Positions 1-23,901 of a stretch of 64,000 nt of DNA are shown piece by piece. The position numbers and the translations under genes were made by a program. How positions within the stretch are numbered: the first letter of the stretch is position 1; each line of letters starts with the position of its first letter. The stretch comes from Paramacrobiotus metropolitanus. Lineage: Eukaryota; Tardigrada; Eutardigrada; Parachela; Macrobiotidae. The DNA is taken from NCBI RefSeq assembly GCF_019649055.1, contig NW_026570359.1, positions 1 through 64,000 on the forward strand. Reading direction: 5' to 3'. The notes under the pieces are model-generated. The model saw nothing but the letters and a program-made list of their open reading frames with translations. It was not told the origin of the DNA and searched no databases.

Positions 1-1
1 G

Positions 2-1433: not shown

Positions 1434-1570
1434 CTACAGGCCCAACCGTTAACCGTCTTCAGCTCCATACCGAGGATAAGAGCGAGGATCGGCAACCCGT
1501 ATTCGTCGAGAATAAGTGCACTCTACCACCCTTCTCAACCTGTGCTGTACTGGTACGAACCCTCAAAAGC

Positions 1571-3076: not shown

Positions 3077-3479
3077 ACAGAACGCCAATTGCGGTCGTTC
3101 CTCGGGTTGGCCAACTACTATAAATTCATCCGTATGCCAGCGGACATCGAAGATGTACGAACTCCTTCGGAAGACTAATTCCATCCGGACAGACTGGACG
3201 GACGACCATACAGCGGAGTTCAACGGCATTAAGGAGGCTTTAACTACAGCCCCGGTACTCGCAAAGTTCGACCCGACCAAGAAGACGGTAATCGAATGCG
3301 ATGCCAGTGGAGCCGGACTTGGCGCGGTGTTGTCACAAGATGGACACCCCGTAGCGTTTGCCAGCCGAGTTCTCCACGGAGCCGAAAAGAACTACGGAGT
3401 CACCGAATGGGAATGCCTAGCCGTAGTTTGGGCCGTCCAGAAGTTTAAACACTTCATTGACCATGGACCCTTCTGGTAG
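3077..3479 (+). pseudogene. pol: Ty3 RNase H, frameshifted
   Basis: RNase H removes the RNA strand of the RNA:DNA hybrid. After the premature TGA the RT connection reads FLGLANYYKF and then slips to another frame near 3,130. That frame holds the RNase H signature ECDASGAGLGAVLSQDG at about 3,295, then SRVLHGAEKNYGVTEWE and LAVVWAVQKFKHF. It ends at a TAG just after DHGPFW. The remaining TDHRALENL is in the next frame, which overlaps it. This stretch therefore contains one nonsense mutation and two frameshifts within 400 bases, so the copy cannot make an intact Pol. Confidence 0.85.
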
Positions 3480-6117: not shown

Positions 6118-6283
6118 TTAACTTAGAATAAGTTAGGGCTTAGCTAGGACTTAGTTAAGAATGGACCTTTGGTGTCGGAATGGAACCTCTTCAGTTGTGC
6201 ATGGAATCTTCAGTTGAATTTATTTGGCCTAATCAGAATGCTAACGAGCCGTATCTCCTTTATCCTAATAGCCTCTTATCACG
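6118..6283 (+). other. AT-rich spacer between pol and giant ORF
   Basis: This gap of about 165 bases is visibly richer in A and T than the ORFs on either side. It has repeated TTAG/TTAAG strings just after the pol stop. A similar AT-rich gap precedes the zinc-motif ORF (15,860-15,898). The position suggests a place where a downstream ORF gains its own expression, by a promoter, splice acceptor or internal initiation. The sequence does not decide which. Confidence 0.45.
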
Positions 6284-9200
6284 ATGTCTGACCGACGACG
6301 AGACCCTCCATCGAGCGGATCGAACAGCAGCCGACGCGACAACCGACGACCCCAGCCGTACCCGCACGACCGATCGGGTTCACGGGCTGAAACGCGTTCG
6401 GCCACCCAAACTCCAATCCCACAGGTAACAAACCCGCATGCGAACATAGCGGCAGATTCTTTGGCAGGTTTAACGGTCGGGTCACGGATGGTCACTCAAC
6501 CCCGGACGATCCCCCTTCAGACCTTGCCACCGGGCACTATGCTCGACGAAACTGGACTTTTGGTGAATGTGAGCGCGGCCACCGGTCAGAACGCACCGGC
6601 AGCACCGATCGACCCAATAGGTCAGATCCGCCCGCCACTTCTACCGGGACCATACAACCCCGGACCAGTTATACCACCGATGGTACCTTACATCCCGATT
6701 ACGGTGACGAGCATCCAGCCGGCCCCAATAGGGCCGCTGATGACTCAAGCCGGGATGAATCCCATGCCGAACCAAATGTTCGCCGCGTTCCAGCAATGGT
6801 ACACTCAGATGGGTATGAACCAGCCACAAGGCGGCGTGGTCAACCCTCTGATGGGATACCCCTTGGTCACCGGACCCATTGGAGCCTCGCAGCAGCCGAC
6901 TTTACCGGCGGCGCCACGTCAGGATGGCACAAATATGCCTCCGGTGGTATCAGCGACGGCTCGACCGGAACGTCAACGGACACCATCCCCGTTCACTCGA
7001 TATTATGAGGACGGAACGAAGGCCTTCTCGGTCCATATGATGAAACGACCGAAGCCTTCGACACCATCGGCGGAGGCAACCCCGGCACAACCGACAGCCG
7101 GACCCTCAACAGCCGGACCTTCGACTTCCAGACCTTCGGCAGCCGCAATTACGGTTGAACCGATCTCAGCCGCATCTTCGGCCGGATCGCGAAGGCAGAT
7201 ACGACCCTCGGAAGAACTCACATTGGGTCTAATGGAAGCGGAAAGTGAATGGACCATCGTCCAGCGCAAGATAGAAGCTCTCAAGCTGAGCGATCCCGAC
7301 TTCGCGCAAGAACTGACCCGACTGAACTCGGAGATGAAAGAACTGGAACAATACATCCAGGATACTCGGGCCATACTTCGAGCCCGGAAGTCAACCTCCG
7401 AAACTCCAGCCTCGGAGAGAGGGCCAGCCTTAGCAACCGCAACTACGGGGGCTTCGGCTGGATCGACCAACCCTCCCTCTAATCCTTCCATGCTCGAAAT
7501 ATACGCGTTGTTCGGACAAGCTGGAGCCCTGATCGAACAGATGCAGGACCCAAGGCTGCAGCAATTTGAAGCCTCGGGGAACGAACCGCGACACCAATTA
7601 CGGGCATACATCCACATCCTGAACAGGGACGTTGAAGTATTCCGGAAGCTGGCGACACAAACCCCTTTTCAATCCCAGCTACTCCAGGGTCACTACCAGA
7701 ACCTGAACTCCCGGGTGAAGGAGGCTTCCGACTACTTCCAGACCTTAAAAGCTCGGGCGGCGGAGGCTCGAACGGAACCACCCCCGACACCCCCTGGAAG
7801 GGCGGATAATACGCCCGGACTGACGAACCGAGAAACGGAACGGGGGCCAGCCTTAGCAACCGCAACTACGGGGGCTTCGGCTGGATCGACTAACCCTCCT
7901 TCTCACCCTTCAATGGCCGAAGCATACGCATTGCTCGGACAAACCGAAGCTCTCGTTCAACGAATGAGAGGCCAGATACAAGCCGAAGGACTGGAAAATC
8001 TGGCATCCGACCGCACGTGGCTCAGCTCCTTGAGCCTCGGAGCCGAAATACTCCGGAAACTGCTGTCGCGAACCCCTTTACAATGGGATTTAATCCGCGA
8101 TCACTACTGGACCCTAATGGCCCTAACCGAGGAGGCTCGAGACGAACACCCTCTGGCACCCTCGAGAACGGTGGATAACGTGCCAAGACTGACGAGCCGA
8201 GGAAGAGAATGGGGATCAGCCGTCGCAACCACAACTATGGGGGCTTCGGCTGGAATAACAGCTTCGCGTCACCCACCAGCTTCCGCGCCACCGGAAACGT
8301 CGGATAACCGGGAAGCGAACCCGAATAGGGTACAGGTCTATGCCACCTTAAGGGAGGCAGATGACTTGTTGGTGCGTCTTAACCGTGAGCACCATGAAAC
8401 CCTGCCAACTGACCCTCGATATCTGGATCAGGAACTGGTCGTCAACCGTATTATCCACGATTCTTACCTTCTCCGACGGTCAATTGAAACTAACAATTCG
8501 ACCCCACAGCAAGTCCAGCAATTCCGGCAAGCGTTCCGGAACTTACGTAAGCTCGTCGACGATCATCAAAACTCAGCGTCACCGACCCCGCGCGACGTAG
8601 CCAAGTCAGACGCACTGGTAGCCATCCGTAAAACTCGGCAACAGGGACTCGTACTCCTAACGGAACTACGCCGACGCCAAGACCGATACCCTCTCGAATC
8701 GGAACAATGGGCAGAAGCTCAGGCCCTTATCATCGAGATCCAGTTGAAGCTCGGAGAAATCGAACGCTTCAGCCATGACAGAATTCCAGCAAGTGCCCGT
8801 GACCGATGGACCTTGGAGGGTGCGGTGGCATACGTGGAACAACAAATAGCGGCTTTCAATCTAACTGAGGAAGCCGGACCGGAAGGGCAACAACCAAATC
8901 CCGCAACCCGCCAGGCGTATGACCGAGCCAGGGACAAGATGGAGCTCTGGAAAAGAGTCAACCGAGCGAGGAGGCTCAGTGACAACATCATAACGATGCT
9001 TATAAGACGTCGTGAACAGGCATACGACCTTGGCGGAGGAGAATCCGCCCGACGAGTCTCGGCCCTTATTACTGAAGTTAATCGGGAGACAGCCGACACC
9101 ACAGGCTTCGTCTGGGAAGGGCTCCCAACAGGACCCTGGGAAACTCGCGAGCTCCTGAGACTTCTCTCTTCCATGGAGCGACGTGCCGACAATTACGGCA

Positions 9201-12200
9201 TAGTCCTCTCCGATGACCCGGCAAACCGGCCCGATGAGGCCGAGGCAAGACTTCAGAGATGGCAACAGATCAGAGGGATCCTCGAACAGGGCCACAAGCT
9301 ACGTAAGAGCTTCCAGCGACAAGCAAGCAGAATACCTAAAGAAGGCCCAGAGGAAACTATGGAACAATCAAGGGTGCGCAACCACCTTAACAATTTAACG
9401 CACAACCTACGTCACGTTGCCACGCTAACCGAAGCAGGGATCCCAACCACACCAGACGAGATACAGGACCTGGAGGCCTGTCTTAGGTACCTGCAGCGAC
9501 GTACTGCTGAAGAGGGGGACTTGGATACAGACGAATATTCCGAGTATACCCCAAACCACAGTCGAAGCCACAGCCGAGGGGAAGAACCAATAGTGATCCC
9601 CGGCTTTGGCCCACTCCCGAACGTGGTAGACCTGGACACCCCACCGATGGGAAGAAGTCCGTCGCCGATGTCAGAACCTCCGTCACCGATACCCTCACCG
9701 GACATAGAAATGTTCGACGACCCACCAGAAATGGACTTTGGTGTTACCACAACTACCGAAGAATTGCGGAGGGACTTAGCCGAAACGGAGCTAACAGCGG
9801 ACCTTCTGACCCAACGGATCGCCACGCTACAACCTGACGACGAAGCCACCCGACGGACCATCACCGAACAGCGTGACATGGCTCGGGGACATGCTGAGAA
9901 GCTCCGGAGGAAGCTTGAGGAAAGAAGCCACAAGGAGGCTCAACCTCGGACCTCCGGACCTCAACAGGCTAAACCAGCGGGACCTCCGCAACCTCGGACC
10001 CCCGGACCCTCAAGGGTCAACCCACCAGAGCCAATCCAACCTCAACCAGCCCCGACGGAGCAGGAAATCCAAACCATCCGTGATGACATAGCCCTCAACA
10101 AAGGCTATGCCCGGGACTTAGCGGCTCAGGCTAACCAGTTGGAGGATCGGACCCCGGCTCAGAAGAAGCTGAAGGAGCGGATCCAAGACCAGTACGTAAT
10201 GGCCATGATGGATGTGGAGAGCTTAAAAGCCGACCTAGAAGTGGCACTTGCAAAAAGGAAGCATGAGGAAGAGAGCCGCAAAACGGTTCCACCTCAGCCT
10301 CCGGCCACTCAGCCGACCCAAGCCTCGGCAAACCAGGCAACTCAGCCTCCGGCTACTCCGCCGACCCAAACCCCCGCGAATCTACCGCAGCAACCAGAAC
10401 GGCCGGTAGCGACCCAACAGGTTGCACCGACCCAACGTCTCTCACCCCGCTCAGTAGTGCGGGCGATGGAAAACATAGCGGACCCGGGAGTCCTGCCACC
10501 CGACGCTCAACCCTACATAGTCGAAGCTATGACTCGGGCAAATAACATCTTGACTGAGATGCGGACTCGCCGAGGTTTCTGCGACCGTCACAGCGCGGAA
10601 TTCTTCAAACTGGATGGAGATATCACCGGAGTTGAGAACCATACCCGGGCAACTCGGATACTCCTACACCCGGAGACTCCAAAGCATCAGTACAGCCAGG
10701 CTCAGCTACAATCATGCGTGCTTTGGCTATCGGGCTTCATCCGGGACTATGAAGAGGAGAAGCAGGCTAAAGAGCAGCGAGAGGCAGATCGAGCCTCCAG
10801 CGATCAGTCTCGGACTCGGCAGATCGAACCCCCAGAGCAGGGTACATCTGCCCAGTCAACCCGGAGACCGACCATCAAGCCACCCTTGACGGCTACTCCA
10901 CCGTCAGGAAATTGGCCACTAGCAGTACCTGGAATGGAGGAAACCATCCGACGGGCACTTCAGCGTGCCGAGGATGCCAGCCACGAAATGCATGCCCAAC
11001 TGCATGCTATGAACGCCTGGGACCCTAGGGTGGCAAGGCTCGATGTCGACACCAATACCTTGGATACGAGCCGAAAAACCATCGCCACCATACTAACCCT
11101 ATCAGCGAAGAGGTCTGCGGACACCGAGGAGACCCTAATCCAGGCGCTGCAAGACATAAAGCGGATCACCGAGGGTTACTACCGTAACAAGCGACGTGAG
11201 GCTGCAGAGCGAAAAGCCCAACAGGCTAAGGCATCTGCCAAACCAGCCACGCCGCCCGGTGAACCCATGGACGTTCCACCCCTAGAGGGTGAGGAATCGA
11301 ACCTTGAACCCACCACCACGGAACGGGAAGCTTATGCTCGGACACGGGACTTAACCCCGGAGCGACCGAGTACTAGTAAGGCACCGAGGCCAACAACATT
11401 GCCGGTACCCCCAATAGGCGGTTCGGCCCGGCCAAAACGAACGGAACAGGTGCTTGTCATCCGACGCCCGACGGAACAGTCAGATGACCCGGAGAGAACC
11501 CCAGATGGTAGGGCTATTCACCAGCCCGGAGGCCCAGACTCGCCTAAGTTCACGAGGAAGCCTCGGTCTAAGGATAGGGATGAGGACAAAGGCCCGAAAC
11601 GGAAGCTGTTCTCATCGCCACCAAGACAAGTCCGGACCCTCGAACAGGTCCGAGAGATTGTGATGCGGGAAACTGCTTCGGACCCATCGAAGCCCCGTCA
11701 GAAGGTACGACCGACGCCGGGTGGGAGCCACAAGACGGCCCCCCAGCCTCAGTTAGCACAGGCCATCCAACCGGCCTTAACCGCAACAGAACGGGAAGCC
11801 TTGGCTTACCACAATCAACTGGTGGATCAGATTAAGCAGGCTGAATTCTACCGGGTCATCCAAGAGGGTGAACTTACCGGTGGACAGCTGGAACATAAGA
11901 TGTCGTCAAGGGATCGGAACCGCATAACTCAGAAGATCTTGGACTTTGCGGCCGACAGAGACACTATCATACGGAGACTTATGGCCCTCCGGAGCAGCAT
12001 GCAGGTACTTCGTCAACAGAGGTTACCGAAGGTGGTTTTAGACTATGTCCAGTTGTTACGGAACCCGAGGATTAACCCGGCCGTATACATCCGTGAGCCA
12101 CCCCTGGAGGAAGGCCAAGTCAAAACCGACCTTATCCGTGAAACTGAACCTGACAACTCGGGAGGTAACGACGACCACCCTAACGTTTATGGTGCGGAGG

Positions 12201-13942
12201 ATAGTGAAGAGGAGCGACAGTGGCAACTAGCCCTGCTGGAAGATCTCTGGGTAACATCAAGGCTCTCGACGGAGCCCCGGTCAACGAGTGGACGAAGTAG
12301 GTCCCCGGTGAAACAGGTGTCCCCAACTAGGGCTCTGTCTCAACCGAACCGGTTACCCAGTATGACCCCCATCCAGCCTCCGCCACCGAGGTTTTCTCCA
12401 AAACGGACCCCTCGGCAAACCTCCCAAGAACGGATGGACACTTCGTCTCCGGCAAAACTGCAGATAGCGGCAAAAGAGCCGGGCAGCACAGCATCGATGT
12501 CAACCTCGGTGCCGGACATAGCCGCTGAAGTAACGGTTGAGAGTCAGGTACAACCGGCTGTGCAGCCCCAATTAGGGCCCGCGGTTAGTAACCAGACCGA
12601 CCGCCAGTACCATGATGACCCGGCCATGGACTCCATAAAGGACTTAACCATAACCGAAAGGGACGATTGCATCAATCGGGCCGCGAGCCCGGAGCGTAAC
12701 TATTACAATGCCCTCAAGAGTCGCCGCGACAACCTGCCCGATAATGACTCTAATGAGACCATCCGTGAGTACCATAACCTCACCGAACGGATGAAAGAGA
12801 TTGTGCAGCAGATGGGTGTTGACTATCGGAAAAAGCGAGCCACCGGCGAAATTCCGGCGCCGCACCCCATCGCACCATCCCCAATCAGCGGACAAACAGC
12901 CTCGAAGGCCACGGTACCCCAAAAGGCGTCCGTGGTCCCGTCAAAGAGGATGGTTGACCCTAAACGGCAGCCATCCGTGGAGATACAGGACGAGGAGATG
13001 CCTGCGTTCAGTGGTTCGGTGATCCACTCAGCTAACTCCACTACCGTACGGAAGAAGCGTGAGGCCAAGAAGTCGACCTCAAAGAAGGAGTCTCCGAACC
13101 GACTGCCTAAGAAACCTCGCGGCGGCGGAGACACCGATGTCTCGGACGTAGAAGGCCGTCGGAACAGGGCCGAAGAAGGGTCCGACCCGAGTTATCATCC
13201 TCGGATATCGAGCCAGAGTCAACATCAAGCCGACAGGAACCCGACAAGAATCGGGGGCCTAGGCCTGAGCTTAAACCTGGCCAAAGCGTCGAAAATTGGA
13301 TCGACGAAATCCGGAACTGGGCGAAGGAAGCCTCCAAAAGGGTACCGGAGTCAAGCAGGAGAAAAAGGAGCCACAGGGAGACCCTCCACTTCCTCATTTC
13401 TCCAGCGGATGGTTGATAACATCCAGCAAAGGGACCGCGACTTAGAACGCTCGGCATCCCCGGAGATTGAGATGGATGATACTCCGGTCAGGCGGAGGCT
13501 CAATGAATCGGACCAGCTGGAACCGGGCTCGGCCAAACATCTGGCCGAGGGTCCCCATGAAGAGATGTGGGACTACCATGCTGACACCGATGAGTCTGAC
13601 CTGCCAGCTCCGGATAACATCCGCAACAGGCTGCCAGACAGACAACCTGGAGAGCCGGAACCGACCTTCTCCAAGGTGATCTTTAGGAGAGACGTCCGGC
13701 GGATCATCACCACAGCTGACGCAGAACGCAGAGACGTCTACCAGGCCCTGGTGGAGCTCACCGAAGAATACCGGAGCAGGCCATTTCCTTACCGCACAAT
13801 TTATGCGGAAGATCGTCAGTTGGATCCAGGACGAATGCATGGCCTTTATACTCCACCGATCTTGGGACCGAATGGGCGAACTGGTACTCCCGAAACCACC
13901 GGCCAAGCTAAGCCAGAAAACACCGGAACAACGGATAGTTAG
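6284..13942 (+). CDS. Giant 2,552-residue retroelement ORF of unknown function
   Basis: A single open frame of 7.6 kb sits in the position where env occurs in errantiviruses. I see no signal peptide, membrane segments or fusion-protein features, so it is not a recognisable Env. The N-terminus is basic and Ser/Arg-rich, followed by a Pro/Met/Gln-rich stretch to about residue 230. From about residue 305 come long charged helical or coiled-coil-like segments separated by Pro/Thr/Ala linkers. Three related repeats begin at about 377, 518 and 640 (ERGPALATATTGASAGS core). A Pro/Ser/Asp patch (SPMSEPPSPIPSPDIEMFDD) lies near 1,130. The C-terminal third is basic and Ser-rich. A frame this long and open in a copy whose RT is broken suggests recent constraint. 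It could be a structural, RNP or nuclear-scaffold protein; this is inference only. Confidence 0.85.
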   Translation: MSDRRRDPPSSGSNSSRRDNRRPQPYPHDRSGSRAETRSATQTPIPQVTNPHANIAADSLAGLTVGSRMVTQPRTIPLQTLPPGTMLDETGLLVNVSAATGQNAPAAPIDPIGQIRPPLLPGPYNPGPVIPPMVPYIPITVTSIQPAPIGPLMTQAGMNPMPNQMFAAFQQWYTQMGMNQPQGGVVNPLMGYPLVTGPIGASQQPTLPAAPRQDGTNMPPVVSATARPERQRTPSPFTRYYEDGTKAFSVHMMKRPKPSTPSAEATPAQPTAGPSTAGPSTSRPSAAAITVEPISAASSAGSRRQIRPSEELTLGLMEAESEWTIVQRKIEALKLSDPDFAQELTRLNSEMKELEQYIQDTRAILRARKSTSETPASERGPALATATTGASAGSTNPPSNPSMLEIYALFGQAGALIEQMQDPRLQQFEASGNEPRHQLRAYIHILNRDVEVFRKLATQTPFQSQLLQGHYQNLNSRVKEASDYFQTLKARAAEARTEPPPTPPGRADNTPGLTNRETERGPALATATTGASAGSTNPPSHPSMAEAYALLGQTEALVQRMRGQIQAEGLENLASDRTWLSSLSLGAEILRKLLSRTPLQWDLIRDHYWTLMALTEEARDEHPLAPSRTVDNVPRLTSRGREWGSAVATTTMGASAGITASRHPPASAPPETSDNREANPNRVQVYATLREADDLLVRLNREHHETLPTDPRYLDQELVVNRIIHDSYLLRRSIETNNSTPQQVQQFRQAFRNLRKLVDDHQNSASPTPRDVAKSDALVAIRKTRQQGLVLLTELRRRQDRYPLESEQWAEAQALIIEIQLKLGEIERFSHDRIPASARDRWTLEGAVAYVEQQIAAFNLTEEAGPEGQQPNPATRQAYDRARDKMELWKRVNRARRLSDNIITMLIRRREQAYDLGGGESARRVSALITEVNRETADTTGFVWEGLPTGPWETRELLRLLSSMERRADNYGIVLSDDPANRPDEAEARLQRWQQIRGILEQGHKLRKSFQRQASRIPKEGPEETMEQSRVRNHLNNLTHNLRHVATLTEAGIPTTPDEIQDLEACLRYLQRRTAEEGDLDTDEYSEYTPNHSRSHSRGEEPIVIPGFGPLPNVVDLDTPPMGRSPSPMSEPPSPIPSPDIEMFDDPPEMDFGVTTTTEELRRDLAETELTADLLTQRIATLQPDDEATRRTITEQRDMARGHAEKLRRKLEERSHKEAQPRTSGPQQAKPAGPPQPRTPGPSRVNPPEPIQPQPAPTEQEIQTIRDDIALNKGYARDLAAQANQLEDRTPAQKKLKERIQDQYVMAMMDVESLKADLEVALAKRKHEEESRKTVPPQPPATQPTQASANQATQPPATPPTQTPANLPQQPERPVATQQVAPTQRLSPRSVVRAMENIADPGVLPPDAQPYIVEAMTRANNILTEMRTRRGFCDRHSAEFFKLDGDITGVENHTRATRILLHPETPKHQYSQAQLQSCVLWLSGFIRDYEEEKQAKEQREADRASSDQSRTRQIEPPEQGTSAQSTRRPTIKPPLTATPPSGNWPLAVPGMEETIRRALQRAEDASHEMHAQLHAMNAWDPRVARLDVDTNTLDTSRKTIATILTLSAKRSADTEETLIQALQDIKRITEGYYRNKRREAAERKAQQAKASAKPATPPGEPMDVPPLEGEESNLEPTTTEREAYARTRDLTPERPSTSKAPRPTTLPVPPIGGSARPKRTEQVLVIRRPTEQSDDPERTPDGRAIHQPGGPDSPKFTRKPRSKDRDEDKGPKRKLFSSPPRQVRTLEQVREIVMRETASDPSKPRQKVRPTPGGSHKTAPQPQLAQAIQPALTATEREALAYHNQLVDQIKQAEFYRVIQEGELTGGQLEHKMSSRDRNRITQKILDFAADRDTIIRRLMALRSSMQVLRQQRLPKVVLDYVQLLRNPRINPAVYIREPPLEEGQVKTDLIRETEPDNSGGNDDHPNVYGAEDSEEERQWQLALLEDLWVTSRLSTEPRSTSGRSRSPVKQVSPTRALSQPNRLPSMTPIQPPPPRFSPKRTPRQTSQERMDTSSPAKLQIAAKEPGSTASMSTSVPDIAAEVTVESQVQPAVQPQLGPAVSNQTDRQYHDDPAMDSIKDLTITERDDCINRAASPERNYYNALKSRRDNLPDNDSNETIREYHNLTERMKEIVQQMGVDYRKKRATGEIPAPHPIAPSPISGQTASKATVPQKASVVPSKRMVDPKRQPSVEIQDEEMPAFSGSVIHSANSTTVRKKREAKKSTSKKESPNRLPKKPRGGGDTDVSDVEGRRNRAEEGSDPSYHPRISSQSQHQADRNPTRIGGLGLSLNLAKASKIGSTKSGTGRRKPPKGYRSQAGEKGATGRPSTSSFLQRMVDNIQQRDRDLERSASPEIEMDDTPVRRRLNESDQLEPGSAKHLAEGPHEEMWDYHADTDESDLPAPDNIRNRLPDRQPGEPEPTFSKVIFRRDVRRIITTADAERRDVYQALVELTEEYRSRPFPYRTIYAEDRQLDPGRMHGLYTPPILGPNGRTGTPETTGQAKPENTGTTDS
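6720..6736 (+). other. CAATA-loop hairpin inside giant ORF
   Basis: CGGCCC / GGGCCG encloses CAATA with six perfect pairs. A four-pair relative (GACC/GGTC) lies 110 bases upstream at 6,611. Both are in the Pro/Met-rich N-terminal part of the giant ORF. Confidence 0.55.
7414..8300 (+). repeat. Three internal repeats within the giant ORF
   Basis: Three direct repeats start near 7,414, 7,838 and 8,203. Each begins with an Ala/Thr-rich linker (GPALATATTGASAGS in the first two, SAVATTTMGASAG in the third). Each continues into a helical segment with a shared pattern: EIYALFGQAGALIEQM, EAYALLGQTEALVQRM and QVYATLREADDLLVRL. The period is about 120-140 codons. The first two are nearly identical at DNA level over the linker, and the third is more diverged. 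The protein has therefore grown by in-frame duplication. Confidence 0.8.
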
Positions 13943-15536
13943 AGCCATCGGCTATTACAGGAACAAGAGGTACTACTCGCCTCCAGATTGCTCGGTTCCT
14001 CAACAAAATGTACACCTACGGCGACAAACCGAAAGGCGAGGCCGAGATCGAGGACATCATGAGAGTAAACTATCCTCCAGGCTATGGTTACGAAGGGGCT
14101 GCAGACTACTAACGCAGCAGCAGGTCCACTTCGGTACACCGTACCAAACTTCATCCCTGAAAAGAATCGGAGGGAACAGAAGCTTCGGATGTCGTACCTC
14201 CACACGAAGAAGTATGACCCGGAAGGAGCTGAGGTCCAGGTCAGACCAGAGGAAGACCCTGCACCCCAAGCCAGAGTGTGGCTGGAGCTGGCCAGATCAA
14301 CGCTTCCTCAGGTAGCAGATTCCCCAGGAACGACCAAGAGCCCCGGGCGATTTGCAAAGGTCTGTTTCAGCCGACCAAGACCCCGGCAGCAAACCTATTA
14401 GGCATTCGGCCCGGGATAGGAGAGGCAAATTCGTCAAAGACACGCAGTCGGCCTCCGGATCCCCATGGACTTGTCGACGCAGGCTGGAACCTCAACAAGG
14501 GGCCAGTCTGTGACTAAGACTAAGCGCAAGAACAAGGGAAGGACATCGCGAATGCTCCAGTCCTTGAGGAGGAAGAAGAACCTCCTCGAGGACGATGATG
14601 ATAAGGACGCCAAGTCAGAACAAGACTCTGACAAATCCGATGACTCGGATGGCGACGACGACGATAATGAAGATGTAAGGGCAGCCGCCAGCGGCACCCG
14701 AACATCAGAACCGGATGATGAGCCTGACAACCAGGAACAGCCTCCGGCAGACACCGGATGATCCGATGGAAGAAGCCGGATCAGAGGTACCTTCTCATCA
14801 ACAATTGCGAGCCTCTTCGACCAAAGGACCCCGAGTCCTCCGGCCGACCAGCTACTCATGAAGTGGCACGAAGATACAGCGCAAGTCCTGCCTCAGGAGA
14901 TCCCGTCGAAGCCCATCATCCGGCTTCCCCGGCCGAAACAGCCGGCAACCATGCGGGCATCTAAGCCGAAGCCTCGGATCTCCGACACCGACCCCGGATG
15001 GGTGCATGTTCACGCTGCACTCAAGTCGCTGTCATGGTCGGGCCCATATGCAACCCCGGAATTGGCTTACCAGCTGCTGAAGCATTGGCGCGTCGACAAG
15101 GACGGAAGCTGGTTCGACCTGCCTGGACAGGGTTAAGACCTACTGTCGGATGGCATATGAGACCGGTGCCATCCTCCGGGTGTATACTAAAACGGAACGG
15201 GCGTACTACGTCTTTCCGAGGAAGAACAAGACCCTGCACCGAAGACATATCTCGGATGGCGGGATGCAGTAATTGCCTGCGGACGGATCGACACCCGGAA
15301 GGATTAACTCGCTGGGAGATTTTGAACCACCTAATAGGTCGGTTCGAGTTCATCCTGATGTCCGCTTACCCTCAACTGGAGGACGCACGGTACCGACCGG
15401 TCCGACGAAAGAAAACCAACACTACCTGGCCGACGAGCTGGGTATGTCCTGGAGCAAGCCTGCCGACAGAAGGTCCTCGGATCGAGTGAACCTACAAGAC
15501 CCACGGGCAGCGTTTCTCCGTCTTCTATCTACCTGA
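13943..15536 (+). pseudogene. Decayed continuation of the giant ORF
   Basis: Protein-like reading continues after the giant ORF stop but jumps between frames. At 13,803-13,970 it is in frame 3 (SWIQDECMAFILHRSWDRM). At about 13,996-14,110 it is in frame 1 (FLNKMYTYGDKPKGEAEIED). Frame 2 runs at 14,084-14,401 (NFIPEKNRREQKLRMSYL), then 14,465-14,761 (very acidic) and 14,765-15,136 (WVHVHAALKSLSWSGPY). Frame 3 runs at 15,132-15,272 (VKTYCRMAYETGAILRVYT), followed by mixed frames to 15,536. Stops at 14,399, 14,759 and 15,270 interrupt otherwise continuous reading. The intact protein may have had about 3,000 residues or been two proteins. No domain is recognised. Confidence 0.55.
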
Positions 15537-15700
15537 GACTTCGGACAGCACCTGCCTAAGACGCGGGCAAGCTCGGCAAGCCCACCGAAGGCTCCCACAT
15601 CGGCTGAAACGGAAGCCCAGAAGCGGTTAGCCAGGCCAAGTCGACCAACCCGGCTGACCTGCCGAAGAAAGAGCTAAAACGGAAGTACACCACTGGAGTT

Positions 15701-15719
15701 TCTTGCCCAATAGGCGAGA
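15701..15719 (+). other. CAATA-loop hairpin, first of spacer trio
   Basis: TCTTGCC / GGCGAGA closes CAATA with seven pairs, one of them T/G. A copy with the same seven-pair stem follows 47 bases later. Confidence 0.65.
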
Positions 15720-15747
15720 CCTATAACCTCCGTAACAGGGATATTTC

Positions 15748-15766
15748 TCTTGCCCAATAGGCGAGA
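15748..15766 (+). other. CAATA-loop hairpin, second of spacer trio
   Basis: TCTTGCC / GGCGAGA around CAATA, seven pairs including one T/G wobble. The flanks differ from those of the copy at 15,701, so the stem and loop are what is shared. Confidence 0.65.
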
Positions 15767-15898
15767 AGAAAAAGGATCGGACAAGACCTGACCGTACCCG
15801 ACCGTTTAAGCTCACATCTAACCATAGAACGTTTAACCCAATAGGTTTACGTAATGACCCAAAAGGTTTAAAATAAAAATAACAACAAATTAAGTTAA

Positions 15899-18231
15899 GT
15901 GTTTCTGACCATAGCCGCCCAGCCCCGGACGGAACCTTATGACTCGGGTTGCCAAACGTGCCGAGCCAACAATAACTCACCCCGGACACGCCAACCCTGC
16001 GCGGACTGCCTGTTACGACATATGGACAGACAGGCCGGGGAGGACCGAGTCACACGACGGGACCAGGCTAACGCCCTGTATCTCCAAGTCGTTACCGGGA
16101 ACCTGAGTGCGTACACGTACTTGATTCACAACAGTAGAGTCCTTGACCAGCTGGAAGGCCGGGAGTTGCTCCATATGTGGGACTTGCAACGCTACCGCAG
16201 ACGTACCCACGAGCCCGGTTGGGATAACGCCCCACCAGTCCCGGATAATGCTCGACTGGTCCATGCCCGTGAACAACGACGGGAGCAGGAACGCGAAGAT
16301 GACCGCCGAGAGATAGAGGCGGCGGACCGGCGGATTGCCAAGGCTCAGCGTGAGCATGACAAACGGACACGCCCGAAGGAGGATAAGCTCCCACCTATGG
16401 GTGGCCGGCGACTCATTGGCCCGACTAACGGTGGAAACAATGGGTTCCCGGACGAGCCCTCCGCCCCTCATAATGTCTTTGCAGAAGTGTTGAATCCGGA
16501 TGGGACCGCAATATACCCAGCATTGGGAGTGCATTCTTTACTGCTCCCGCACTTACCGGGATGACGGTCACGCTACCGGACCCGACGGCCATCAATACAT
16601 GGCCCAAATCCTTCACCAGATGGAGGCTCAGCCGGCAATTCAGCGGAGCCAAGTGGAACAGCAATTGGTAGCCCCACAAGAAGGTGGCTTACCTCAGCAA
16701 ACGGGCAGCTTACCCTCGCAGCCCCCGACTCAGCCAGTAATCCGATCGGCAGAGCCATCGGTGACGGCAGCAGTGACCCCAACAGGGTCCCTCCGTCTAA
16801 CCGCAGAACAGAGTGTGTCGGACCTGACGCCCGGCGACTTACGCCATAGGATCGGAAGGATCTACGGCACAAGCTAGAGGCCCAAAATAGGCCCGCGACG
16901 GCGCAACCACCAGCTGATAAGACTTTGAAGGATCGGACTCGACCCTCCCCCGGCAAGCGATCCGGATCGGAGGATAACGGGCTCGTCGTGGACTCCAACA
17001 GTAAGTCCCGGCGTAACCTTACTCAGCCTGTGGCCCGACATCAGGCGGCTCGACACCCAGCCTTGCGACCACCCCCACCTTTGGAGCAACTGGATGAGTT
17101 GCCGGTGCCACAACGTCCACTACCTGACCCAGAACCAATAGTGCCGAGCCAGCATGACCCTCGGTACGACCACGCACGCCGACAGGGTATTGCAGTGGAG
17201 ATCCCACATCCGACAGAACGGACGAATTACATCATGGCAACCATGCAGTACCGGGAAGACCGACGAAATCAAGTCTGGCACCTGGTTAATGACCTTCGGA
17301 TCTTCCTCGACCATTCCGGATACCAACAGATGTTCGAACATCGGCAATGGTCCGAGGACTTTGAGATGAATGATCGGTTGGCCTATGGCATCGGATTCCC
17401 GTATTACCGGACGAACGGCTTGCCTAGTGCAACCGACCCAGCAACATTGGGACTGCCACTCGACCATCTTGACTGGTCTCAACTGAGCCAGCTCCCGGTG
17501 TATTCCTCGGAACGAGAGGTCACGGATCACACGGAATGGGTGGCGCAGTTCGTACTCACCGAGGCACAAGCGGCCATGGTGATCACTGCAGCCAGAGCGG
17601 CCCAGGGTTTGCCCGAATACCTTGGCAACACGGAACCCCCGAAGCCCGGGGAGACGCTCCGATGGCTTTCCAGACGGCTTTGCGGCTGATTTTCGCGGCT
17701 CGACTCGGCCACCATCACAGCCATTACACCCTGTACTGCGCGTACCGGAACAACAACATTCCGCCCCGACTTCGGACGGCGGTGGCCCAGTTGAGTACGC
17801 CGATGAGAGATACAGTGGTGGGACTATGGCTGCGCGACTTCCTGCTGACGGCAGAGCGATGGCATAAGGAATATCAGTACCACCCGGACGACGAAAAGGA
17901 TGTCGATGAGGCTTCGACCCTCTCGGAATGGTGCCGGACCCACCGCCACTTGCCACCCGGGTTCACATCACCACCGATGCCCGAAGGCAAGTCATCTTAC
18001 AGATACAACATGTGGCCTGGTTCATCATCCTCGGGCAGGAACCGCCGAAGACGCGAGGCCCGCCGAACTAAAGCCGAAAAGCCCGGACAGGAAGCCTCGG
18101 AACCGCAGTCAACCTGTACCCAGGAGGCTACATCCTCGAACCACCCAGGACGACGGGAACGGGATAAAGACGACGACTCGGAAGGCTCTCACTTCGGTGG
18201 TGGAGCCCCGGTCAACGTGGACTTAGAATAA
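15899..18231 (+). pseudogene. Zinc-motif ORF of unknown function, frameshifted
   Basis: Four overlapping open stretches in changing frames (15,899-16,564; 16,500-16,877; 16,925-17,689; 17,536-18,231) read as one protein of roughly 740 residues broken by about three frameshifts. The first stretch opens on GTG and has its first ATG near 16,020. Near the start is a CX2C-X12-CX2C pair (CQTC..CADC), likely a zinc site. It is followed by an Arg/Glu-rich helix, a Gln/Pro-rich linker and a more globular part (NQVWHLVNDLRIFLDHSGYQ; GHHHSHYTLYCAYR). The end is a basic and acidic tail. I do not recognise the family. Because it sits between the hairpin-bearing spacers, it is a candidate RNA-binding partner (inference). 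Confidence 0.6.
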
Positions 18232-18298
18232 AGAGAGACCGGTAGCTGGACCCCAATAGGGTTAGGCTAACCGTAAAACCGGTCACATGGACACGACG

Positions 18299-18317
18299 AC
18301 GTCTCCAATAGAGACGT
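18299..18317 (+). other. CAATA-loop hairpin with an A/T-containing upper stem
   Basis: ACGTCTC / GAGACGT gives seven perfect Watson-Crick pairs around CAATA. The usual CC/GG next to the loop is replaced by TC/GA, a two-sided change that keeps pairing. This is one of the clearest compensatory cases. Confidence 0.7.
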
Positions 18318-18345
18318 AAACCCCAGATGGAACCCCAGTCGGAAA

Positions 18346-18412
18346 AGCCGCAGATCGCCGGCTAACTAAACCGCAGATCGTCGGCTAACTAAACCGCAGA
18401 TCGCATTAACCA
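18346..18412 (+). repeat. Short tandem repeat around CCGCAGATCG
   Basis: Three tandem copies of a ~25-base unit begin AAACCGCAGATCG. Two of them continue CGGCTAACTA. The third continues into ATTAACCACGATC, and that version recurs at 20,594-20,628 (CGCAGATCGCGTATAACCAC). The array thus shares units with the rest of the 3' region. Confidence 0.65.
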
Positions 18413-19233
18413 CGATCAGCTACCTAAACCGAACCCTCAATAAGGGATGCGGTGGTAGACTTGACCTGTATCCTCCTTTCGATCCGGCAGATGCTCGATA
18501 CCTCACCGGACCCTAAAGCTCGGGGTATGAGCCCAACAGGCCTCCACCTGCAGAAGGATCCAGACCTCGGCAAATATAGGAACTCCCGTTCCTATATCTT
18601 ACATAGCCCAACCACTGCCGAACCATGGTCGGAACTCCCTTCGACCCGAGCAGATTGCTCGATATCTCACCGGACTCTAAAGGCCCCGGGGTACGAGGCC
18701 CAATAGGTCTCCACCTGTGGATGAACATTCTAAGTTCCGTCCCTCCGACGCGGGAAGCGATATTACCTACATCGCGGGAACGGAAATACCTCGGATCGAA
18801 ACACAGAGTCCGAAGAAAGGGACCTGACCGGACTTCACCTCATGAAAGGCTCAACAACTACCTTGTGAACCCAATAGGTTCCGAGGCAAGTGCCCCTAGG
18901 CCTGATGAACCTAGGCCTGGCAAGAGAAGGGTTTGGCCGACTGGGAACCTGACCACTCTGGCCAGGACCACCAAAATATGGATCTCACCACACCTTCCGG
19001 AAATGGACGGTTTGAAGCGAAGGCGAATACGGCACATGAACACATCGATAACTTCCCCGTGAACCCAATAGGTTCCAGGGAAGGTGCCCAATAGGCCGCC
19101 AGAAAGTCAGCGGAGCCTGATCCCCCACAGACGACTAAGGCAGAAACTTAGACCTCGTCGTCAGTAGAGAACAACCGAACCGGCAACCCTCGGACTACCG
19201 TAGTTCTGGAAGAGAAGCCTCCTAAACCACGCT

Positions 19234-19322
19234 AGTCTGGACCTTCGCACGAAAGGCGGTTTCTCCGCGCAGATCAGCATGACCTGCTGTTCTGCACGGA
19301 TAATCCACTCCGGCAGAAGACT
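19234..19322 (+). ncRNA. Structured module copy 1 (TCGCACGAAAGG / CCGGCAGAAG)
   Basis: The conserved 5' strand begins at 19,245 and the conserved 3' strand (CGGCAGAA) at 19,311, 66 bases later. Between them, TCCGCGCAGATCAGCA and TGCTGTTCTGCACGGA pair around a five-base loop with one G/T and one mismatch. The outer helix is weak here (AGTC/GACT). Confidence 0.55.
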
Positions 19323-19706
19323 CTGGAATCAACCTCAGATGGATCCTCGGATAGACCCGATAAGTACGAGTTCAACCTGGACCGTACCGGACGTCTCCCT
19401 GGTTTCCTGGATGAACCGGACGGAATGCTCCGTCTCGGGTGACAATGACAGGAGGCGAACCGAGCCAAGCAGCGAGGGATGCAACCGAACTAAAGGGTTA
19501 GCCGACCCCCGACGGTTAGCTGGCTCCAGCTGGATCAGCGACTCCGCCGACCTGCTATCCCCGAAGCTAAAAGGGAACATCATAGGCCGTGGTAGAAGCC
19601 CGACCCACCATTGACTCAGGGAGTAGACCCCAATAGGGATACCCCCGATGTCCAACCCTCCGACCCTCGGACTAGAAGGGTCAGACTCACTGAAAAACCC
19701 AGTTCA

Positions 19707-19799
19707 CCGGGATAACTCGCACGAATAGCGGCTGACCAGCGGCGAACGGGGTATAACACGGTTCGTCGTTGGCCAGCCCCTCCGGCAGAAGGATCCTGG
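19707..19799 (+). ncRNA. Structured module copy 2
   Basis: The outer helix is CCGGGAT / ATCCTGG. The conserved strands are TCGCACGAATAG (19,717) and CCGGCAGAAGG (CGGCAGAA at 19,783, spacing 66). The inner helix GGCTGACCAGCGGCGAAC pairs with GTTCGTCGTTGGCCAGCC, with three of the 18 positions non-Watson-Crick. Confidence 0.65.
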
Positions 19800-19827
19800 A
19801 GGCTGACCCCCGGATAAAATGGAACGT

Positions 19828-19928
19828 CATATCGGGAAGAATCGTACGAATAGCGACTTGGGCAAGCACAACTGCGCACGTACGCAACTGTCCTTGCTCA
19901 AGTCCCTCCGACAGAGGAACCCCGGATG
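19828..19928 (+). ncRNA. Structured module copy 3
   Basis: The conserved strands are TCGTACGAATAG (19,842) and CCGACAGAGG (CGACAGAG at 19,909, spacing 67). The inner helix is GACTTGGGCAAG with CTTGCTCAAGTC. The outer helix CAT.TCGGG pairs with CCCGGATG around one bulged A. A CAATA hairpin follows at 19,952. Confidence 0.65.
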
Positions 19929-20053
19929 CTCCGTTCCGTAACTTGGACTATAGAGCCCAATAGGCTCTCATGCACGGATCCTACTAGCCCGGACCTCGTT
20001 GACATAAGCAGCGAAACGCCCTATATCAGCAAGGCCCTGGTGACAGCCTCAAT

Positions 20054-20145
20054 ATCGGACCCTTCGCACGAAAGGAGGTTGTCCAGGGTTCCCAGCATGA
20101 TCTGCTGGGCACTCTGCTCAAACCCAGCCGGCAGAAGGACCCGGT
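20054..20145 (+). ncRNA. Structured module copy 4
   Basis: The conserved strands are TCGCACGAAAGG (20,064) and CCGGCAGAAGG (CGGCAGAA at 20,129, spacing 65). The inner helix includes CCCAGCA / TGCTGGG closing on TGATC. The outer ATCGG / CCGGT pairs. A CAATA hairpin follows at 20,175. Confidence 0.65.
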
Positions 20146-20488
20146 GGACATACAGTTCCATAACTCCAACCCTCGGAGCCCAATAGGCTCTTATCCTCAA
20201 CCGAATGCGGACCGTCTGATCAGCGATACTCCTGACCAAGCGATCCGCACGACTCAGCCGAGTACGGATCACGGCGACCGGGAAGAAATACACCTCGGTC
20301 GGTGGATCCGTATACCCTATTTCCGGAACTCAACTAAGAGGATTCCGCAAACATGGCGCTGAAATAGCACGATTTCAGCACCATGTTCGCCAACGACCCA
20401 TGGACACCCTGGAACTGGAGTAATAGCTGGCTGACTGACCGTCACTCGAAGTCAGCACGAGAGCCCAATAGGCCTCGGCAGCATAACT

Positions 20489-20585
20489 CCGGCGGAATCC
20501 ATCGTACGAAAAGCGACGGGACGGTGCTGCGCGGCGCGACCCGCTTCGCTCCACCGGCCTGTCCCTCCGGCAGAAGGACCCTCGG
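20489..20585 (+). ncRNA. Structured module copy 5
   Basis: The conserved strands are TCGTACGAAAAG (20,502) and CCGGCAGAAGG (CGGCAGAA at 20,568, spacing 66). The inner helix GACGGGACGGTG pairs with CACCGGCCTGTC at ten of twelve positions. The outer pairing is CCGG.GG..TCC with GGACC.TCGG. CAATA hairpins lie just before (20,463) and after (20,648). Confidence 0.6.
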
Positions 20586-21540
20586 AGAAAGCAAGCCATC
20601 GCAGATCGCGTATAACCACGATCTCTACCTTACCAAGGATGCCCAACGAGGCCCAATAGGCCTCCATTCCACACCGGAACGGTTGAAGTGGGACATTAGG
20701 GCACACTCACACCTTTACCTCAGCTCATGAAGCTGGTGGAAGGTGGGAGTGACCGGCATGACCATTTCACCGCGAATCGGACCGTGGTCACCGGAAGGAT
20801 GTACCAGGACGTTAGGGCACTCGTTAGTCCCCTGAAGAGCTATGATAGCCCGGCAGAGGATTGACGAGTCCGGCACGACTGCACGCCCAGAAGGAGGCTA
20901 CGGACGTCCATAACTACGCCAACAGGCCCAATAGGCCTTTAGCCCCAGCCTTATTCCGGCATCCCGGGTGTTTCTGCCTAAGTGGAAGCACGGGATCAGC
21001 CGAGGAACGGACCAGCATGGATTCCGTCTTTAAAACCCAGAGTGTCTACCCTGTGGCTCAGACCCAATTAGGTCTTATACAGCCGCTGCGGAGCCTCTTT
21101 TGCATGATTTCTGCTAGTCACCCGGTGGACATCTCCAGCATCAAGCGGACTCCCACCAGAGCATGTTGGGCCAGTCTCGTCACCGAGGCTCGGACCCTGT
21201 CCAGAGGCATCAACCCTCTCCATGTTACCCAATAGGTGACGGGAGACGTTAACAAGGGTTTTGCCCGGGCAGAATGCCTTAGGACCAGCCTTACCAGATG
21301 CTGACTACCTCACCACCGAAGCTACCCCGGACACAGAGGCTGCCCCGGGTAGGAACTTCATCTTACCGGTGCGACCCCTCGGTAGAGTTGCCCAATAGGC
21401 GACCTACACCGTCAATAAGGGTTTTTCCGGGAGGAAATGATCATCGGACCATCAGACCGTCAACTATTAACCGACCGAGGCCAATCGACCCTTGGACCCT
21501 CGGACCTTAACCTTCCAAGTCCGGAACCCACTATCTCTGA

Positions 21541-21557
21541 GTCACCCAATAGGTGAC
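21541..21557 (+). other. CAATA-loop hairpin with lower stem
   Basis: GTCACC / GGTGAC encloses CAATA. After GA on the 5' side and A on the 3' side the pairing resumes as TCTCT / GGAGA. The neighbours at 21,224 and 21,719 have GTTACC / GGTGAC, in which the C-G pair is a T/G wobble, with the same 2-by-1 internal loop. Confidence 0.7.
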
Positions 21558-22811
21558 AGGAGATATATTCGGGATTTCTGACCGGACAGAACACCCAGCA
21601 CATCGCGTAACCACGCTTTGCCATCACAGCCGAGGGTACATCGGGACTTTACCTCGAGTACCGAGGCTGCACCCATCGACCCATCGACCCTCCGAACCCC
21701 GGCGATCATCCTCTCCGAGTTACCCAATAGGTGACAGGAGACGAACATAGGATTTTCAGCCGGGCGGAACATCCTTGTACCCATTTGCTAGCGCAGCCGA
21801 GGGTATAACCCGGACTCTAACTCGAGTACCGAGGCTGCCAATTGGACTTAGACTCAGCAACCGAGGCTGAGCTTGGACTCTGATTTACAACCGGAGCTGA
21901 CCCTCGGTTACCGAGCTTACCATCGGACTTCAGAACCTGAAGCCAACCGGATAGGGGTCGGACTCCCGTACAGAGACCATACCAGCGACCATTCAACCCT
22001 ATGGAGACCAGGCATTAACCGGTCCTTGTTGCCCAATAGGCTACAGGACACACCTTTACGGTTTGCCCGGCTCGAACCTCGGATCACCGGATTTTCCTGG
22101 AGGATCCACCGATCAATAGACCCAATAGGTCTTATCCTGCACTCAGAGAGGGTACCTTACGGTATTCGCGAATGCGACAGTGCCTCTCCATCAACCTTAC
22201 CCGATGAACCTCGGCTGGACGTAAGTACGACTTGTCTTACCCGGCTAAGAAGGTTCAGATCAAACTTTTACCGGAGGATCCCGGTCGGAAAGTGTGTTTC
22301 ACGCCCGTTTCGCACCCGACACCGGAGATCCACACCCCATTACCCGAAGTCAATAGGGTCGAACCTTCGACCCTCGGTGAATTGAACCGGTACCATTGGG
22401 TATCCCGAGAACCGATGCCTCGGACCTAGATGACCGGACTTCCAGTGGACTGGAGCCCCCGTGAAGCGGACGAGCTCTAGTCGGAATAAGCACCCGGCCC
22501 AAAGCCCCGGACCAAAGACTTTGAGTTTACTAATCTCGAAATGATGTTCTCATTTTGTTGATCTTTTTTTTAACCTGCTCACCAGGAATTGTGATGTTAT
22601 TTTACTAGAGAGAGACAGATGGAATAATACTTCATTTTTTTTTACTTTTTTTTTCGCCGTTACGGACTCGACCAACAGATGCCTACACCGGTCCAACAAT
22701 ACCACCGACCGACCTTCGGATTTCGGCCGTGAGTTGTATCGCCACCACGGGTCCGGAGGAGAACGCGGCGCGAGATACCCCCATCATCGGATACTTCCGA
22801 GGCGCAGCCAC

Positions 22812-22828
22812 CGACCCCAATAGGGTCG
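22812..22828 (+). other. CAATA-loop hairpin in the LTR-like end
   Basis: CGACCC / GGGTCG encloses CAATA with six perfect pairs. A further CGCA / TGCG pairing lies outside an internal loop. It sits within the putative LTR, so if that call is right a copy should also be found in the 5' LTR. Confidence 0.65.
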
Positions 22829-23272
22829 TGTGCGGAGCGGGCCCTGAGCGGTATAGAGGCCGGTCCTTCGCAGGGGCTCGGACTCCGCCCAGAGGTATGT
22901 TGGGCTAGTCGCTATGGCAGCCTACGAGCAGGCAGCCAGCGACAGTCCCGCTTCCGGTGTGCTGACTCACACCGAGTCGCACTCGCTGTCGAGCGCTAGA
23001 TCGGCCTCGACTCAGGCAGCTTTCCGCCCAGCTCATGTCTCGGCCAATCATCGGCCTCGATGTAGGCGGAGCCACGCCCCACTTCTCCATCTCGGCCTAT
23101 CAGCGTTCGTTCGCTCGTGTTGGATCTGCCCAGTGTGCCGCATAGGCTTTTCCCATGCTTTGGCTCGATCTGCCGTTCACTTTGTTCACTAGCATTATCA
23201 TTCACTGTACTTTCACGATACTGCTCGCACCTCGAGCCTTTGTGTTTTGGTTCCTCACTTTATTGCTATCAC

Positions 23273-23278
23273 AATAAA
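23273..23278 (+). terminator. Polyadenylation signal AATAAA of the giant element
   Basis: AATAAA is followed within 30-50 bases by CTTTGTTCGCCTGCTGT-like T/G-rich sequence, the usual layout of an animal poly(A) site. Confidence 0.55.
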
Positions 23279-23901
23279 GCCTTCTCTCACTATCGTGAGC
23301 CTTTGTTCGCCTGCTGTCACAGTTTTACATTAAATATTAATTTTTTCTCTCCTTTCAAATTTTTAAACGGCGAAAATGCTAGCTCGAGTTGATACACGCT
23401 CATGCATCGTCATCGTAAAAAACTGAAAATAAGGTATCAGTCGCCGCACATTCCAGTCACCCATTGTGCGCGTTTGCTTGCGCACGTCCGTACGGTACGA
23501 GTATATTGCGAAGAAAATAGCGCTGGATATTTTCTGAAGTTATATTATATTATGTAATAATAATATAGCTTCTCAAGCTATGGATCCATGTCGTGTGATA
23601 TTGTAACTTGTAAGGTTGTAACTGAGGACAGACAGAAATTTAACTGATAATAGAGAGAAATGTAAGTTGTAAACTCAGGAGAGACAGAAACTGTAATATA
23701 GGATAGACAGAGATGCAGAGGCAGAGGAGGAGCATGTTATGTGAGCAGTGAAAGAATGCACTGAATGTCGTTGTCAGTTGATCCAAAGTTTCAGGCACCA
23801 GTTTTTCGTTTCTTTTATCCATGAAACTTCCAACCAACATCTCAGAAGATAGAAAAAAAAAATTTAGAAGCTTGTTGATTTCTGATAAGTGGTTGTTTGT
23901 G

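Follow-up and report, generated by a model that had tools for sequence, protein, structure and literature searches.

In MS2, one hairpin at a gene start acts as the operator through which translation is controlled. The lambdoid phages match a short hairpin with a phage-specific loop, boxB, to a phage-specific N peptide, at few sites and for bacterial antitermination; in the Rev system, a multimerising element protein binds one structured RNA region, the Rev response element (RRE), for export. Here we describe an array of short hairpins in f1, a giant Ty3/gypsy-like long terminal repeat (LTR) element of the tardigrade Paramacrobiotus metropolitanus. The 3' part of one f1 copy, about three quarters of the element, occupies positions 1..23321 of the plus strand of the 64,000-nt stretch of contig NW_026570359.1 that was analysed (the window); f1 to f5 are labels for the element families compared. 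Within a family the loop is constant on stems of free sequence. The f1 hairpins are confined to the RNA-sense strand, where most of them occupy the 3' non-coding region, the spacer before an open reading frame (ORF) termed ORF3, and the flank of the 3' LTR. Sister families keep the design, and at several places the very site, with other loops; that related families in the same genome have, over the stretches compared, hairpin loops of their own is the new observation of this work. The f1 array consists of two dozen separate hairpins, in contrast to the single structured region of the RRE, and its short hairpins with group-specific loops recall N-boxB.

Dispersed recognition hairpins are already known in RNA viruses: passages of PMC6281560 describe packaging signals made of many stem-loops with a common recognition motif, naming MS2, picornaviruses and the hepatitis B pregenomic RNA. 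Like these, f1 has several sense-strand stem-loops with a common loop and otherwise free sequence; it differs in being a retroelement, in having its hairpins concentrated in a single spacer and the non-coding sequence at the 3' end, and in that the loop class varies between tardigrade element families in one host. For LTR elements, we found no dispersed recognition hairpins in the open-access literature with searches of which some terms were loose. In the nematode LTR element Cer1, according to passages of PMC10309623 that also mention retroviral export by an element protein, the accessory protein CERV has a possible zinc finger of the C4 type; CERV is required for the export of unspliced genomic RNA, and its invariant cysteines play a part in concentrating it at genomic RNA in the nucleus. 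By analogy of motif, ORF3 is likewise an accessory protein with a C4 zinc-type motif; CERV, as those passages describe it, has gag exons in common, whereas ORF3 is a separate downstream ORF, and they contain no hairpin array, their sole use of 'hairpin' referring to a protein fold. In enteroviruses, a comparison between species has covered loop variants of oriL domain d and those residues of the viral protein 3C that bind RNA, and PMC5633025 concludes that loop and protein evolve independently; oriL is one site, in contrast to the array in f1.

A constant-loop hairpin is repeated on one strand of f1

The nonamer CCCAATAGG, the core of the hairpin (stem, CAATA loop, stem), has 24 exact copies in the window, all 24 on the plus strand and none on the minus strand, against a mean of 0.57 and a maximum of 2 in 100 dinucleotide shuffles. 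The original prediction, made from the letters of the window alone, had put the count at about 24 with no reverse-complement copies. Both figures are borne out, with an expectation above its 0.24, which assumed equal base frequencies. All eight stems that it quoted are present, and the nonamer is indeed absent from the zinc-motif ORF at 15899-16564. Of the 24 copies, 21 lie within 15701-22828, and the other three (6613, 6724 and 11410) fall inside a giant ORF (6272-13942).

For an unbiased test of the stems, all 24 sites were picked by the nonamer alone and the 3' arms were shuffled among sites. Stem pairs 3-6, which lie outside the nonamer, were canonical in 79 of 96 cells, compared with 44.2 after shuffling (sd 5.0, maximum 63 in 20000 shuffles). 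Because pair 7 was at chance level (7/24) and pair 6 weakly above it (16/24, P 0.012), we take the constant unit to be a stem of about six pairs. The covariation score of 0.618 was reached by none of 500 shuffles (0.177 for shuffled arms) and fell to 0.05-0.26 on sliding the register; the 24 sites hold 21 distinct 6-bp arm pairs. Partition-function folding in a context of about 125 nt gave a mean pairing probability above 0.5 over the four innermost pairs at 21 of 25 CAATAGG sites; the four that failed are at 11412, 19089, 19631 and 22351, the last of which is not CCCAATAGG. Control pentamers folded at 0/29 (ATAAC), 0/12 (AATCA) and 0/28 (AACAT) sites.

Among hairpin loops of 4-9 bases in 1-23321, the strongest is CAATA (18 of 48 with a stem of at least five, corrected p 4e-27); the six-base loop CAATTA is enriched as well (4/7, p 5e-5), and CAACA is a minor form (4/48). 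CAATA and CAATTA hairpins with a stem of at least five number 22 on the plus strand of f1 in the window and 0 on the minus strand (shuffle mean 0.09, maximum 3 in 500 shuffles). Lowering the stem to at least four gives 26 in the window, of which 17 lie in the 3' non-coding region (18232-22897, 4.7 kb), 3 in the pre-ORF3 spacer, 4 in the giant ORF and 2 in gag-pol. The ORF3 region (15899-18231) contains no CAATA or CAATTA hairpin and two CAACA hairpins. Across the whole genome the nonamer occurs 606 + 754 times, versus 362 + 348 for the reversed control. No Rfam family matched the window at the gathering threshold, and no tRNA gene was found in it.

All hairpins listed here are on the plus strand. 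The gag-pol part carries two with CAATTA loops (785..800 and 1100..1115); inside the giant ORF there are two with CAATA (6611..6623 and 6720..6736) and two with CAATTA (7140..7157 and 12565..12578). The spacer holds three CAATA hairpins: 15701..15719 (stem of seven, pairing probability 0.97), 15748..15766 (stem of seven) and 15835..15847 (stem of four). At the start of the 3' non-coding region are CAATA hairpins at 18249..18263, at 18299..18317 (ACGTCTC/GAGACGT, with a closing C-G pair and without the CC/GG), at 18434..18446 (CCCT/AGGG), at 18695..18711 and, with a 55-nt module in common, at 18867..18881 and 19061..19075. The contig begins inside the f1 element, and its 5' part is visible in another copy (L039, on C4), where hairpins with a stem of at least four stand before the first long frame (2184 and 2243), inside it (2561 and 2609) and in gag (5180, 5249 and 7169), with further ones at 7673 (CAATTA) and 8222. 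Hairpins of f1 are present in the leader, in gag, in the giant ORF, in the spacer and in the 3' region, but 17 of the 26 in the window belong to the 3' non-coding part. In coding parts of f1 the CAATTA and CAACA variants are frequent, and non-coding sequence has mostly CAATA, perhaps owing to codon limits.

Stems are retained across f1 copies

We aligned 30 copies of the f1 3' region (L009-L038; matches 76-100% identical) and scored, at each site, the share of copies with the loop that also have a stem of at least four. At most sites the stem accompanies the loop. The share is 6/6 at 19952..19968 (AGAGCC/GGCTCT), 18/19 at 20175..20191, 20/21 at 20648..20664 (GAGGCC/GGCCTC), 16/17 at 20924..20938, 23/26 at 21223..21241, 26/26 at 21387..21403, 26/29 at 21719..21735, 26/26 at 22118..22132 and 26/26 at 22812..22828 (CGACCC/GGGTCG, about 70 nt 5' of the 3' LTR), all with CAATA loops; the CAATTA hairpin at 21060..21075 scores 19/21, one of these copies having CAATA. 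Two-sided changes are seen at some sites. The CAATA hairpin at 21541..21557 (site 21547; 14/16) reads GTTACC/GGTAAC, GTCACC/GGTGAC or GTTATC/GATAAC depending on the copy, and the CAATA site at 22028..22044 (site 22034; 23/28), whose stem is interrupted in the window copy (pairing probability 0.74), reads GTTGCC/GGCGAC or GTTACC/GGTGAC across copies. Site 20466 is an exception, with a stem shorter than four in 18 of the 19 copies that have the loop, and CAATA recurs without a stem at 22114, 22351, 22697 and 23272. Between 21215 and 21769, modules 154-178 nt apart (family D12) each contain one CAATA hairpin and further common sequence; additional structured elements may be present there.

These copies were compared with a phylogenetic null in a home-made test resembling R-scape, in which substitutions placed on a tree by parsimony were reassigned along its branches; it covered the 11 sites with a stem of at least four in at least 12 copies, other sites being dropped. 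Canonical pairing was 0.821, versus 0.641 under the null (null maximum 0.698). Substitutions per column on internal branches, which presumably represent the period when f1 was active, were 0.179 in loops, 0.417 in stems and 0.846 elsewhere, and on terminal branches 0.839, 1.008 and 1.310, the rates of loops and stems being biased downward because sites were chosen for having both in 12 or more copies. Wobble pairs in f1 favour the plus (RNA-sense) strand, the ratio of G.T to A.C being 144:15 over the 30 copies, with the same sites counted repeatedly, and 12:6 in the window copy.

Related families carry other loops on the same design

A search with the reverse transcriptase (RT) returned many relatives at 63-69% amino-acid identity among the 74 of 1562 candidates that were scored. 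We compared 3' stretches of 9.9 kb each from six of them, assigned to f2 (L050, L051), f3 (L052, L053) and f4 (L055, L056), together with L048/L049; L055 was cut at 8090 for the strand and shuffle counts, and in the alignment of f2-f4 L056 was also used, from 6151 on. L054 and L057 were set aside as mostly non-element by base composition, L057 having one CAATA hairpin at the LTR-proximal site. L048 ends within the giant ORF region of its element and shows no enriched loop by itself.

Each family has its own loop: CAC[A/G]NAA in f2 (mostly CACAGAA and CACATAA), ACAAA in f3 and ACANA in f4. With a stem of at least five, CACAGAA makes up 7/11 and 7/12 in the two f2 copies (corrected p 8e-10 and 2e-9), ACAAA 7/20 and 5/20 in f3, and in L056 of f4 ACATA 4/15 and ACAAA 4/22. 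Own-loop hairpins of this stem length on the plus strand number 13 and 11 in f2, 7 and 5 in f3, and 9 and 12 in f4, against shuffle means of 0.04-0.37; the minus strands of f2 and f3 have none. The two copies of a family are about 94% (f2), 90% (f3) and 83% (f4) identical, so these pairs are not independent. No CAATA or CAATTA hairpin with a stem of at least five occurs in the f2, f3, f4 and f5 stretches examined, and hairpins of a foreign type include one of the CAC[A/G]NAA type in each f3 copy and one ACA[CGT]A in f1. Pairing probabilities above 0.5 were obtained at 14/23 and 13/22 sites in f2 and at 11/17 and 12/20 in f3; permuted or reversed controls gave 1/4 in f2 and 0/36 in four counts in f3.

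The alignment of f2, f3 and f4 contains 26 hairpin clusters, many of which are restricted to one family. Hairpins with a stem of at least four are common to two or more of the three families at eight homologous places; at a ninth (column 2986) f2 has a hairpin and the f3 and f4 loops sit on a stem interrupted by A.C. Eight of the nine places involve f2, and there the f2 loop is of its own type and the f3 or f4 loop of theirs. The nine places yield 75 pair comparisons, of which 30 are two-sided changes, 4 one-sided, 33 the same and 8 unpaired in one member; choosing places by their hairpins inflates the two-sided share, and with three families the comparisons depend on one another. The loops before ORF3 recur across families, with three hairpins in f1, two in f2, two in f5, one hairpin and one interrupted stem in f3, and two loop sites with interrupted stems in f4.

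The fifth family, f5, whose RT is 55% and 73% identical to that of f1 in two matched pieces, probably has the loop UACC. In a stretch of one copy (C29:1251900-1257470) the tetraloop TACC accounts for 9 of 28 plus-strand hairpins with a stem of at least four and 0 of 11 on the minus strand (shuffle mean 0.25, maximum 3 in 2000 shuffles). Two of the TACC hairpins (1266 and 1305 of L059) lie just 5' of the zinc-bearing start of ORF3, and two further ones close to where the stretch ends, ahead of the 3' LTR. In the window, the f5 stretch, which was not used to pick TACC, has three against 0.43 expected (P 0.01) and 0/17 on the minus strand. At a stem of at least four, the two f5 stretches contain no CAATA or ACANA hairpin, and the one in the window, which also lacks CAATTA, has a single hairpin of the CAC[A/G]NAA type. 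Our first reading, that f5 lacks a constant loop, was replaced after the two hairpins before ORF3 appeared.

Candidate readers encoded by the element

In the window, ORF3 lies in three plus-strand pieces: 15899..16564, with an N-terminal CX2C-X13-CX2C zinc-type motif; 16850..17689, the conserved middle; and 17473..18231, the C-terminal part with a basic patch followed by an acidic tail. Since the pieces are in different frames and many sister copies have one open frame, the window copy is broken. The single frame spans about 713-732 aa in many f2-f4 copies; in some others it is broken or longer. Of the 12 copies listed for the 47-51% group, which holds f1, nine have a frame of 758-897 aa. One aligned copy from each of f1-f4 has the Cys4 motif; in the f5 copy a longer spacer goes with CX2H (Cys3His). 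Genome-wide, 64 matches to the codon pattern of FPCAYH stand against one for a control, and 12 of the first 13 occurrences listed are inside ORF3 matches. The three pieces had no Pfam match, and piece 2 had no homologue at E 1e-3 among 5.8 billion proteins. The basic stretch of ORF3 could also bind RNA.

Gag is the other candidate considered. The Gag of an f1 sister copy, L039 (ORF 3913-7257), has CGHCLWGNHNQASC and RGG repeats, with a CCHC knuckle identified by eye, and the capsid parts of f1 and f5 are 48% identical.

Possible roles of the hairpins

With about even confidence, we propose that the hairpins serve as cis-acting recognition tags in the genomic RNA, their loop being read by a protein of the element, most likely ORF3. 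The design itself, a constant loop on variable stems in one orientation, is supported by the unbiased site test, occurrence on one strand, the rate data and recurrence with other loops in relatives. To this extent the original prediction of a recognition hairpin, based on constant loop, variable stem and single orientation, stands; our data do not single out one role among packaging, translation, export and localisation. We infer that the reader is element-encoded, because a single common host protein would fix the loop; within ORF3, the N-terminal Cys4 motif is the most likely means of contact. Many ORF3 molecules would bind the loops along the 3' region of unspliced RNA, and the bound loops would mark the family's own unspliced genomic RNA for export, packaging or both. 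The spacer hairpins might also let ORF3 control its own translation.

More tentatively, the loops may form a family-specific RNA address code, in which a common array of sites is kept and the loops are replaced together as the element-encoded reader changes. Cys4 versions of ORF3 would then go with CAAYA or ACANA loops and the Cys3His version with UACC loops, and each family would handle its own genomic RNA only. If correct, this would provide a naturally occurring set of RNA loops and matching protein readers within one animal genome, in which the change of such a pair with two dozen copies on one side could be tested directly. It would also show in what way an element 25-32 kb long distinguishes its own RNA.

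Several results weigh against these proposals. The covariation above a phylogenetic null that the original prediction called for did not appear: among the 30 f1 copies 0 of 77 stem pairs were significant, and the summed statistic of 207.9 lies inside the null (mean 185.6, maximum 274.7). With 2.1 substitutions per column, the majority of them on terminal branches, we judge that this outcome reflects a lack of power and is not a refutation. Some f1 hairpins are products of module duplication. In f4 the folding contrast is modest (16/83 and 24/76 ACANA sites versus 6/48 and 4/53 for the reversed control), and each f4 copy has one own-loop hairpin with a stem of at least five on the minus strand. 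The ratio of G.T to A.C wobbles is 11:5 in f2 and reversed in f3 (3:11) and f4 (9:17), so that the wobbles point to the sense strand as the acting one in f1 and f2 only. Since f2, f3 and f4 have the common core ACANA, the loop classes are three and not five unrelated ones; f3 and f4 both have ACAAA at column 435, and the stem that f3 retains at column 1640 bears AACGAAA, a loop not of the f3 type. For f5, TACC was picked post hoc, mainly from one 5.6-kb stretch, and it is not the top loop in the window stretch. The change of zinc motif with loop class is a single contrast (C4 versus C3H), and the single-sequence structure model of ORF3 piece 1 was of low confidence (mean pLDDT 56.5) and was not used.

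The same loops could have another reader in the element. The nucleocapsid part of Gag, with one CCHC knuckle and an RGG-rich stretch, may bind them, so that many weak sites nucleate particle assembly, a possibility that we regard as less likely. The motifs of Gag and its divergence among families would suit this, as would the likeness of dispersed stem-loops with a common motif to the multiple packaging signals in the passages cited from PMC6281560. Against it, a single spacer and the non-coding 3' sequence hold 20 of the 26 window hairpins, an arrangement less dispersed than that model. Clustering in 3' non-coding sequence is typical of host regulatory hairpins, and a host RNA-binding protein might read the loops for stability, localisation or silencing, the families having drifted to different host readers; this is unlikely in our view, as one genome holds different loops at homologous sites and a separate host reader would be needed for each loop class.

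An equally unlikely role would be architectural, with loops docking in receptors or kissing other loops within a large folded 3' RNA. Other repeated modules are present in the f1 3' region, loop and receptor could coevolve by family, and f3 has complements of ACAAA (9 and 7 minus-strand matches); yet TATTG, the kissing partner of the f1 loop, is absent between 17193 and 23260, and reverse-strand matches to CAC[AG][GT]AA in f2 stretches number 0 (L050), 1 (L051) and 2 (L048). Stems pair on both strands, the f3 minus strand pairs slightly better (TTTGT 9/20 and 9/20 versus 7 and 5 for ACAAA), and f3 and f4 wobbles lean towards it, all of which would fit a DNA-level signal that serves integration, recombination or the synthesis of complementary DNA (cDNA), or a hairpin formed by the minus strand of the cDNA. 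We consider this improbable in view of the plus-strand wobbles of f1 and f2, the constancy of the loop on one strand and the non-coding enrichment. That the array is an artefact, one hairpin-bearing module duplicated and otherwise chance, is hardly credible: longer modules are common to some sites (families D12 and D17), but the variety of arm pairs among the 24 sites speaks against it, as does the presence of the same design, with different loops, in other families.

Architecture of f1 and other features of the window

In f1 the RT part of pol (1310..3076, plus strand; PF00078, E 6.2e-28) precedes the integrase part (3427..6117, plus strand; PF17921 and PF00665) on the same strand, as in Ty3/gypsy-like elements; the integrase ORF matches three annotated P. 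metropolitanus proteins at 84-92%. Downstream of the integrase, the giant ORF (6272..13942, plus strand; 2556 aa) contains internal repeats. Its relatives were seen in sister families only, and its first 2500 residues had no match at E 1e-3 among 5.8 billion proteins. The 3' LTR (22898..23321, plus strand; 424 bp, TGTTGG...TCACA, with AATAAA at 23273) is supported by LTR-only matches at the 5' side of copies, including 597-1019 of L039; an LTR start near 22590 was rejected, as the 5' LTR copies define 22898-23321. Paired LTRs are confirmed by a sister copy on C50, which measures 31.7 kb from outer LTR end to outer LTR end with the RT inside, and by the 5' LTR of L039. Inspection by eye of L039 1020-1060, after the 5' LTR, revealed no obvious tRNA-complementary primer site, a point for which no systematic test was made.

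The window also contains the 5' part of an f5 copy (44937..54300, plus strand), with a 5' LTR at about 44937-45310, gag at 47092-49548 and RT; the f5 copy on C29 measures 24.8 kb between outer LTR ends. On the 3' side of the truncated f5 RT lies a fragment of a type B DNA polymerase (54234-56093; PF03175), preceded by an 18-base tandem repeat (54001-54076). The region 35527-43200 resembles a terminal-inverted-repeat element whose interior is taken up by satellites: between two inverted-repeat pairs (64 nt, 94% complementary, and 66 nt, 86% complementary) lie about 7.1-7.5 kb, with tandem arrays of 28 and 30 bases and an excess of A at 38-42 kb. Near the end of the window, an ORF at 62115-63545 resembles transposases of the MULE/ZSWIM type.

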